DNA of 64,000 nucleotides from Halofilum ochraceum (GTDB lineage: Bacteria > Pseudomonadota > Gammaproteobacteria > XJ16 > Halofilaceae), in assembly GCF_001614315.2 (NCBI RefSeq), contig NZ_LVEG02000008.1, positions 124,001 to 188,000 on the forward strand. The letters run 5' to 3'. The first letter of the stretch is position 1. Each line of letters opens with the position of its first letter. Of this stretch, positions 48,533 through 51,640 are shown piece by piece. The position numbers were made by a program, and so were the translations under genes. The notes beneath the pieces were generated by a model. That model saw only the letters and a list, made by a program, of their open reading frames with translations, was not told the origin of the DNA and did no database searches.

Positions 48533-51500
48533 ATGGCAAGTGACGTCGAAGAAGTCGAGAGCACCGAGAGCGCCGAGTCCGAGGCGCGTGCACTGGCCGA
48601 TCGCCTGGGCGGCGTCGGCTGTCGCCGCAAGCGCACCGAGGACGCGCGCTTCATTCAGGGCAAGGGCAACTATGTCGATGATATCCAGATGCCCGGCATG
48701 GTCTACGGCGATTTCGTCCGCAGCCCGCACGCCCACGCCCGCATCAAGTCGATCAACAAGGATAAGGCGCTGGCGATGCCGGGCGTCCACGCCGTCCTGA
48801 CCGCCGAAGACCTGGAGCCGCTCGGTCTGCACTGGATGCCGACGCTGGCCGGTGACAAGCAGATGGTGCTGGCCGACGGCAAGGTCTGCTTCCAGAACCA
48901 GGAAGTGGCCATGGTCATCGCCGACGACCGCTACCTCGCCGCCGACGCCACCGAGCTGGTCGAGGTCGAGTACGAGGAACTGGATCCGGTCGTCGACCCG
49001 CACCAGTCGATGGCCGAGGGTGCGCCCGTGATCCGCGACGACCTGGCGGGCGTCGACGAGGGCGCGCACGGCAAGCGCATCCATCACAACCACATCTTCA
49101 CCTGGGACGTCGGCGATGCCGATGCCACCGACCGGGTGTTCAGCGAGGCCGCGGTCACGGTCAAGCAGGACATGCTCTACCCGCGGGTGCATCCCTGCCC
49201 GCTGGAGACCTGCGGCTGCGTCGCCTCGTTCGACAAGGTCAAAGGGGAACTCACCGTCCACCTGACGTCGCAGGCGCCGCATGTCGTGCGCACCGTGTTC
49301 TCCACGCTCTCCGGCATCCCCGAGAGCAAGGTCCATATCAACGCGCCCGACATCGGCGGCGGCTTCGGCAACAAGGTCGGCATCTACCCCGGCTACGTCG
49401 TCGCCACGGTGGCCTCGATCGTGCTTGGCCGGCCGGTGAAGTGGATCGAGGACCGGATCGAGAACCTGTCGACCACGGCCTTCGCCCGCGACTACCACAT
49501 GATCGGCGAACTGGCGGCGACCGAGGACGGCAAAATCCTTGGTCTGCGCGCCAATGTACTCGCCGATCACGGCGCCTTCGACTCCTGCGCCGACCCAAGC
49601 AAGTGGCCGGCCGGCTTCTTCAACATCTGCACCGGCAGCTACGACATCAAGACGGCCTACGCCCGCGTGGACGGCGTCTATACCAACAAGGCGCCGGGCG
49701 GGGTGGCCTACCGCTGCTCGTTCCGCGTGACCGAGGCCTGCTACATCATCGAGCGCATGATCGATGTCCTCGCCGAGCGCCTCGGCATGGACAAGGCCGA
49801 GATCCGGCTGAAGAACTTCATCCAGCCGGAGCAGTTCCCGTATCAATCGGCACTGGGCTGGGAGTACGACAGCGGCGATTACCCGCGGGCGCTGAAGCAG
49901 GTCATGGACGCCTGCGACTACGACGGCCTGCGCCGGGAACAGAAGGAGAAACGCGAGCGCGGCGAGATCATGGGCATCGGCCTGTGCACCTTCACCGAGA
50001 TCGTCGGTGCCGGCCCATCGCGCAACTGCGACATCCTCGGTGTCGGCATGTTCGACTCGGCCGAGATCCGCGTCCACCCGACCGGCTCGGTGATCGCGCG
50101 CATGGGCACCAAGACCCAGGGCCAGGGCCACGAGACCACCTACGGCCAGATCATCGCGACCGAGCTCGGTCTGCCCTCGGAAAACATCATCATCGAGGAG
50201 GGCAATACCGACACCGCGCCCTACGGCCTGGGCACCTACGGCTCGCGCAGCACGCCGGTCGCCGGCGCCGCGACCGCTCAGGCCGCGCGCAAAATTCGCG
50301 ACAAAGCCCGGAAGATCGCCGCGCACCTGATGGAAGTCAGCGAGGACGACCTCGAGTGGACCGGCGAAGGGTTCCAGGTAAAAGGCGTGCCCGATCAGAG
50401 CACCGACATGCCGACCATCGCCTGGGCCGCGTACAACAACGTCCCCGAGGGCATGGAGCCGGGCCTGGAGGCGGTCGACTACTACGATCCGCCGAACATG
50501 ACGTACCCCTTCGGCGCCTACCTCTGCGTCGTCGATATCGACCGCTACACCGGCGAGACCAGTATCCGCCGGTTCTACGCGCTCGACGACTGCGGCACGC
50601 GCATCAACCCGATGGTGATCGAGGGCCAGGTCCATGGCGGCCTGTGCGAGGCCTTCGCCGTCGCCATGGGGCAGGAACTGCCGTTCGACGGCGCCGGCAA
50701 CATCCAGGGCGCGTCGCTGATGGACTACTTCCTGCCCACCATGGTCGAGACGCCGCGCTGGGAGACCGACCACACGGTCACGCCGTCGCCGCACCATCCG
50801 ATCGGTGCCAAGGGCGTGGGCGAGTCGTCGCACGTCGGCGGCATCCCGTGCTTCTCCAATGCCATCAACGACGCGCTGAACCAGTTCGGTGTCAGCCACG
50901 TCAACATGCCGCACAACGCCTACCGGGTCTGGCAGACGCTGCACGAACTGGAACTCGACCAGCGACCCGAGGCGGCCAACGTCGAGCCGTTCCAGCCCCG
51001 GCGCGAGGCCGCGGCCGAGGGCGGCTCGCCGGCATCGGTGCAGTCGCCCGACAAGGCCAGCGGCAAGGGCACCGAGATCACCATCGAGCGCAACTATCCG
51101 CTCGACGTGTCGGCCGCGGATGCCTGGGAAGTCCTGCAGGACATCGAGAAGGTCACCGGCTGCATGCCCGGGGCATCGATCGTCGAGCAGACCGGCGACA
51201 GCACCTACGTCGGCGAGATGAAGCTCAAGGTCGGTCCGGTCACTTCGGCCTTCCGGGGCGACATCGAAGTCCTGGGCGTCGATCCGGAGCAGAGGGAACT
51301 GCGCATGAAGGGCAGCGGCGGCGACTCCAAGGGCAGCTCCAGCGCCAGCATGAGCCTGACCGCACGCATCGAGGACAAGGGCGCCGGCCGCTGCGAGCTC
51401 GTCGGCAGTACCCGGATCGAGCTCAAGGGCAAGCTGGCCTCATTCGGTGGCCGCATGCTGGAGAACGTCTCCGACCGCATGCTGCAGCAGTTCGTCGACA

Positions 51501-51640
51501 GCTTCCGCGACCGGGTAGCCGCCGGTGGCGAGGGCGAGCGGGCCGAAGAGGCCCGGCGCCGGGTCGAGCAGGGGCCGAAGTCGATGAACGCGCTGGCCAT
51601 GGTGTGGCAGGTGATCAAGAGCCTGTTCGGCCGCAAGTGA
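48533..51640 (+). CDS. coxL: CO dehydrogenase form I large subunit fused to a CoxG domain
   Basis: 1035 residues, against about 810 for known CoxL. Residues 1-810 are Cox[30 protein letters not shown], the form I loop VAYRCSFR with Cys395 (equivalent to the copper-binding Cys388 of Oligotropha) and GAKGVGESSHVGG near the end. A polar linker (about 815-845) leads into an SRPBCC domain (846-990): YPLDVSAADAWEVLQDIEKV, GCMPGASIVEQ, MKLKVGPVTSAFRGDIEVL, GKLASFGGRMLENVSDRMLQ. This parallels the separate CoxG at 36768-37352. A short amphipathic end (MVWQVIKSLFGRK) could touch the membrane. No stop or frameshift separates the parts. The enzyme oxidises CO to CO2. Confidence 0.95.
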   Translation: MASDVEEVESTESAESEARALADRLGGVGCRRKRTEDARFIQGKGNYVDDIQMPGMVYGDFVRSPHAHARIKSINKDKALAMPGVHAVLTAEDLEPLGLHWMPTLAGDKQMVLADGKVCFQNQEVAMVIADDRYLAADATELVEVEYEELDPVVDPHQSMAEGAPVIRDDLAGVDEGAHGKRIHHNHIFTWDVGDADATDRVFSEAAVTVKQDMLYPRVHPCPLETCGCVASFDKVKGELTVHLTSQAPHVVRTVFSTLSGIPESKVHINAPDIGGGFGNKVGIYPGYVVATVASIVLGRPVKWIEDRIENLSTTAFARDYHMIGELAATEDGKILGLRANVLADHGAFDSCADPSKWPAGFFNICTGSYDIKTAYARVDGVYTNKAPGGVAYRCSFRVTEACYIIERMIDVLAERLGMDKAEIRLKNFIQPEQFPYQSALGWEYDSGDYPRALKQVMDACDYDGLRREQKEKRERGEIMGIGLCTFTEIVGAGPSRNCDILGVGMFDSAEIRVHPTGSVIARMGTKTQGQGHETTYGQIIATELGLPSENIIIEEGNTDTAPYGLGTYGSRSTPVAGAATAQAARKIRDKARKIAAHLMEVSEDDLEWTGEGFQVKGVPDQSTDMPTIAWAAYNNVPEGMEPGLEAVDYYDPPNMTYPFGAYLCVVDIDRYTGETSIRRFYALDDCGTRINPMVIEGQVHGGLCEAFAVAMGQELPFDGAGNIQGASLMDYFLPTMVETPRWETDHTVTPSPHHPIGAKGVGESSHVGGIPCFSNAINDALNQFGVSHVNMPHNAYRVWQTLHELELDQRPEAANVEPFQPRREAAAEGGSPASVQSPDKASGKGTEITIERNYPLDVSAADAWEVLQDIEKVTGCMPGASIVEQTGDSTYVGEMKLKVGPVTSAFRGDIEVLGVDPEQRELRMKGSGGDSKGSSSASMSLTARIEDKGAGRCELVGSTRIELKGKLASFGGRMLENVSDRMLQQFVDSFRDRVAAGGEGERAEEARRRVEQGPKSMNALAMVWQVIKSLFGRK

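Follow-up and report, generated by a model that had tools for sequence, protein, structure and literature searches.

The window, which is the whole 64,000-nucleotide stretch of Halofilum ochraceum DNA that was analysed, contains a single gene in which a form I CO dehydrogenase large subunit (CoxL) is fused to a complete CoxG domain. The gene probably originated by loss of a stop codon and encodes a CO dehydrogenase large subunit with its own CoxG, which is probably held at the membrane and would present quinone. The fusion gene is divided into the following parts.

48533..51640, + strand: coxL-coxG fusion gene, 1035 aa (single open frame; also in the sister species G001/L048)
48533..50950, + strand: form I CoxL domain, aa 1-806, with the AYRCSFR active-site loop (TIGR02416; PDB 1ffu/1n5w)
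50951..51070, + strand: linker, aa 807-846, of low confidence and probably flexible (pLDDT; equal length in the sister species)
51071..51532, + strand: CoxG/SRPBCC domain, aa 847-1000 (PF06240; fold match 8UDS)
51578..51637, + strand: C-terminal amphipathic helix KSMNALAMVWQVIKSLFGRK, a likely membrane anchor (alignment; hydrophobic moment; model)

The 1035-residue translation of positions 48533-51640 on the + strand is free of internal stops. Its CoxL half scores 1439.7 bits against TIGR02416, the family of the aerobic CO dehydrogenase large subunit, over residues 36-801 (curated cut-off, 991.15 bits). The VAYRCSFR motif begins at residue 391 and includes the Cu-ligand cysteine. The large chains of the CO dehydrogenase entries 1ffu and 1n5w match the CoxL part with an E-value of 0, and this part can be aligned almost over its full length with the solved large chains 1FFU, 1N5W and 8UEM. 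On this sequence evidence, the CoxL half is assigned as a form I [MoCu]-CO dehydrogenase large subunit, and CO oxidation is its predicted activity.

The C-terminal half contains a complete SRPBCC domain. The Pfam COXG profile PF06240 aligns with residues 860-995 (E-value 5.4e-18, 65.5 bits, gathering score 22.2 bits) and is covered from position 8 to 139 of 140. In a model of residues 804-1035, this part adopts a complete helix-grip fold, with a pLDDT of ∼85-97 in the SRPBCC core and of ∼55 in the linker. The top match among solved structures in Foldseek and VIA-align searches is 8UDS, whose entry title describes CoxG of M. smegmatis without its lipid-anchoring C-terminus (Z 20.4, root-mean-square deviation 1.7 Å over 147 of 147 residues, 35% identity). 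The full-length model is of lower quality (pLDDT 65.7, pTM 0.55; pLDDT below 50 for linker residues 812-845) and, as a single chain without partner subunits, is uninformative on docking. Its alignment rows were coxL-coxG pairs of relatives read through the natural stop; a joint CoxL and CoxG alignment was discarded, the CoxG rows being misplaced.

The polypeptide ends in the segment KSMNALAMVWQVIKSLFGRK, which is helical in the predicted model and has a hydrophobic moment of 0.39. The segment aligns with the tail conserved among separate form I CoxG proteins (..ELNGLAxxW....FFKSLFG..) and is likely, on the basis of these sequence features, to be a membrane anchor. The tail is amphipathic and not transmembrane, in contrast to that of the form II CoxG encoded upstream; the maximal Kyte-Doolittle-19 value is 1.4 for the fusion and 2.44 for the form II CoxG. 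The fused tail is 4 residues, or approximately one helical turn, shorter than the aligned tails of separate form I CoxG proteins, which could mean weaker anchoring. These results bear out the sequence-only reading, in which a form I CoxL with the AYRCSFR loop had been proposed to continue, in one polypeptide, into a complete CoxG-like SRPBCC domain with an amphipathic C-terminal end.

The form I CoxMSL enzymes of Oligotropha/Afipia carboxidovorans, Hydrogenophaga and M. smegmatis share with the window the CoxL sequence, the AYRCSFR loop, the coxM-S-L gene order and the maturation genes coxD, coxE and coxF, but their CoxG is a separate protein rather than a C-terminal domain of CoxL. M. smegmatis CoxG has the same fold as the fused domain and is likewise separate and lipid anchored. 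In O. carboxidovorans coxG mutants, CO dehydrogenase is still active, the particulate enzyme is lost and growth on CO is slowed sevenfold (149 h versus 21 h), and Pelzmann et al. suggest that CoxG has a recruiting role (PMC4240915). CoxG homologues of Sulfolobus bring glycerol-3-phosphate dehydrogenase (G3PDH) to the membrane (PMC11962113). A statement in PMC13240472, which cites Kropp et al. 2025, describes CoxG as a quinone-binding link to respiration. Opinions differ on what CoxG does in electron transfer: in the Sulfolobus study, it was dispensable for the quinone reactivity of G3PDH.

The fused CoxG might accordingly be a membrane tether and nothing else, carrying no quinone while the FAD reduces quinone by another route. 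The Sulfolobus G3PDHs, which react with quinone without CoxG and use it as an anchor only (PMC11962113), and the recruiting role of Pelzmann et al. (PMC4240915) favor such an arrangement. However, the SRPBCC fold of the fused domain is complete, and its closest solved relative, M. smegmatis CoxG, is cited as menaquinone-binding. A tether without quinone is considered unlikely, although it is the most serious competitor of the reading preferred here.

In that preferred reading of a membrane-held, quinone-presenting CoxG, the MoCu site of the CoxL part would oxidise CO, and the CoxS clusters would relay the electrons to the FAD of CoxM. The C-terminal amphipathic helix would keep the tethered CoxG domain at the membrane, and the SRPBCC cavity would bind a quinone, probably ubiquinone, and present it to the FAD. 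The tether would set the CoxG:CoxL ratio at 1:1 and raise the local concentration of CoxG. By analogy with the CoxG literature, the fused domain may be an obligate 1:1 membrane/quinone adaptor, one per CoxL; in combination with the known (CoxMSL)2 stoichiometry, two CoxG domains per enzyme and a permanent membrane/quinone coupling would be expected. A bolder picture, quite possible but more tentative, is that of a form I CO dehydrogenase that is self-contained and tethered to the membrane, in which the covalently attached CoxG shuttles ubiquinone between the bilayer and the FAD on a ∼40-residue leash, with no diffusion-limited recruitment and at a fixed 1:1 ratio. In the genome, UbiA scores above its cut-off and MenA was not found, so the host quinone is probably ubiquinone; M. 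smegmatis CoxG, in contrast, is described in cited work as binding menaquinone. RuBisCO was not found in the genome, which gives no sign of carboxydotrophic autotrophy through the Calvin cycle and fits CO as a supplementary energy source.

A congeneric sister species (G001, CAJXKK010000004.1, labelled as an uncultured Ectothiorhodospiraceae) carries an identical fusion in an identical gene order. The sister protein pairs with all 1035 residues of the window protein, with no gap in the latter and no insertion or deletion across the junction. Identity between the two proteins reaches 98% for CoxL, 90% for the linker and 94% for CoxG, and the final 20 residues match completely (100%). At a dS of ∼0.3, the dN/dS values are 0.03 for CoxL and 0.15 for both the linker and CoxG, and both halves of the fusion are under purifying selection as judged from this sequence comparison. 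A third genome from this genus has neither form I CoxL nor CoxG.

The sister species also bears on whether the fusion persists as one protein. The length of the linker and its low confidence in the models would suit a protease that cuts the fusion after synthesis and frees CoxG, such that the cell uses separate subunits. The linker has nevertheless retained its length and 90% of its residues between the two species at the dS and dN/dS given above, and cleavage is regarded as improbable. An additional, separate CoxG could in principle be made from the fusion gene by internal initiation at an in-frame GTG in the linker (position 51038), which is preceded by a weak AGGG; the sister species has GTA at this position, and the domain start offers no ATG, GTG or TTG, which makes such a product very improbable. 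An assembly or sequencing error that joined two genes, a concern raised by the draft state of the assembly and by relatives whose genes adjoin, sometimes in frame, is hardly credible in view of the same fusion and linker in an independently assembled sister, the purifying selection and a codon bias that continues over the junction (GC3 of 0.91, 0.93 and 0.92 in CoxL, linker and CoxG, respectively). The stop or frameshift that the sequence-only reading had feared might be hidden between 50950 and 51080 is contradicted by the gapless sister alignment and these substitution ratios.

To survey the distribution of the fusion, a form I CoxG alignment was scanned against ∼85,000 genomes, a sample drawn almost entirely from Pseudomonadota, with other phyla covered by plasmids and a few loci. 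Among the best 80 of 214 loci, 72 carry form I coxL together with coxG on the same strand. The only fused locus of the 72 is that of the sister species. CoxG is separate and directly 3' of coxL in 68, as expected from the earlier statement that coxG is normally a separate gene, and the remaining three have irregular reading frames and are unfused. An even sample of 398 Pseudomonadota genomes contains form I CoxL above the cut-off in 18, and it is fused only in the window's genome. In a tblastn search of PLSDB plasmids, the form I CoxL matches listed, which come from Proteobacteria, Chloroflexota, Deinococcus, haloarchaea and Nonomuraea, cover residues 26-823 only. Several further candidates for a form I fusion were rejected: G540 (1024 aa) merely has a reading frame that extends into coxS, G286 (848 aa) is a case of a separate CoxG, and G567, G454, G573, G506, G515, G509 and G203 are Mo-hydroxylases other than CO dehydrogenases. 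As far as sampled, the fusion is lineage-specific and confined to one genus by its sequence distribution.

The relatives also suggest how the fusion formed. In 18 of the 72 loci, coxL and coxG lie in one frame with exactly one stop between them. The locus that the CoxL tree groups with the fused pair (L057; support 100/97) has the junction ...CAG TAG ATG CAG..., in which stop and start adjoin in frame. The fused domain clusters within the form I CoxG group of the CoxG tree, apart from other fused CoxG domains. Given the adjacent and sometimes in-frame genes of the relatives and the CoxG tree, stop-codon loss explains the fusion: the coxL stop was most likely lost in an operon of the order M-S-L-G-D-E-F, which is the common arrangement of form I operons in proteobacteria.

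The architecture itself is not unique, and sequence comparison indicates that Mo-hydroxylase subunits acquired a CoxG domain on several occasions. Large subunits of ∼1000 residues from other Mo-hydroxylases (for example L130, L134 and L088) share the order Ald_Xan_dh_C, MoCoBD_1, MoCoBD_2 and COXG. Unlike the window protein, they have no CSFR loop and score ∼420 bits with TIGR02416 against the cut-off of 991, and their CoxG domains form a clade separate from the fused form I CoxG. Such a C-terminal COXG domain was observed in seven large subunits of the sampled Gammaproteobacteria and in more of the Betaproteobacteria (L130, L131, L132, L133, L134, L135, L034, L063, L067, L076 and L088). In the betaproteobacterial loci L063, L067, L076 and L088, the fusion gene is oriented divergently to a separate, form I-like coxG with no form I coxL next to it. 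In other enzyme families, CoxG is found at the C-terminus of another subunit, in CoxS-like [2Fe-2S] proteins (L137-L140), and, in reverse order, at the N-terminus of a Mo-hydroxylase large subunit (L037:2331-5405). On plasmid NZ_CP049041.1 (49372-52212), one tblastn alignment covers a xanthine dehydrogenase-type large subunit and CoxG, which are annotated as two genes. CoxG fusions therefore occur already in Mo-hydroxylases that do not act on CO, and for form I CO dehydrogenase a literature search combining CoxL, CoxG and fusion turned up no report (the M. smegmatis CoxG paper of Kropp et al. lay outside this search).

The fusion gene is part of a complete form I operon (coxM, coxS, coxL-G, coxD, coxE and coxF), upstream of which lie modABC-like genes, read from their translations, and a form II operon. 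The neighboring genes are as follows.

36768..37352, + strand: form II coxG, separate, 194 aa, with a hydrophobic C-terminal segment (PF06240, E 3.4e-36)
38072..40459, + strand: form II CoxL-like subunit with AYRGAGR (678 bits, under the TIGR02416 cut-off)
47128..47997, + strand: coxM, FAD subunit (PF00941 and PF03450; start set by eye at the ATG of MIPGRFEY)
47999..48493, + strand: coxS, 2x[2Fe-2S] subunit (PF01799 and PF00111; start by eye)
51640..52518, + strand: coxD, AAA+ ATPase (sequence read; homologue after coxL-coxG in relatives)
52515..53648, + strand: coxE, VWA protein (homology to coxE at the same position in relatives; start by eye)
53702..54544, + strand: coxF of the XdhC-CoxI family (PF13478 and PF02625)

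The coxD ATG overlaps the TGA stop of the fusion gene. Directly before coxM, positions 46879-46910 hold a perfect hexanucleotide repeat (CCGAGA x 5.3), which encodes a Thr-Glu run at the C-terminus of the ModC-like protein and would keep the frame if its copy number changed. The form II operon (36768-43622) consists of the separate coxG, coxS, coxL, coxM, coxD and coxE, followed by a MobA-like gene. Its coxG is located 11 kb upstream of the fusion, and the genome thus holds two CoxG domains that belong to different clades and have different C-terminal anchors. As a point against the preferred reading, the CoxG of the form II operon could act in trans. The earlier claim that no separate coxG follows the form I operon is literally true, although a separate coxG exists in the form II operon. 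The accompanying idea of replacement is upheld insofar as the fused domain belongs to the same clade as form I coxG genes 3' of coxL, but the genome is otherwise not free of coxG.

The CoxL-CoxG protein represents a tether of a kind rarely seen in nature rather than a novel type of enzyme; by origin, it is an ordinary fusion of adjacent genes. Its interest lies in the debated hand-over of electrons from CO dehydrogenase to respiration, in which CoxG is viewed as an anchor or as a quinone carrier. The natural fusion provides independent evolutionary evidence for CoxG acting directly on the enzyme, and it offers a ready construct of fixed stoichiometry for structures of CO dehydrogenase with CoxG and for tests of the membrane segment. 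CoxG fusions recur in several families of Mo-hydroxylases, which suggests that CoxG serves generally as an adaptor.
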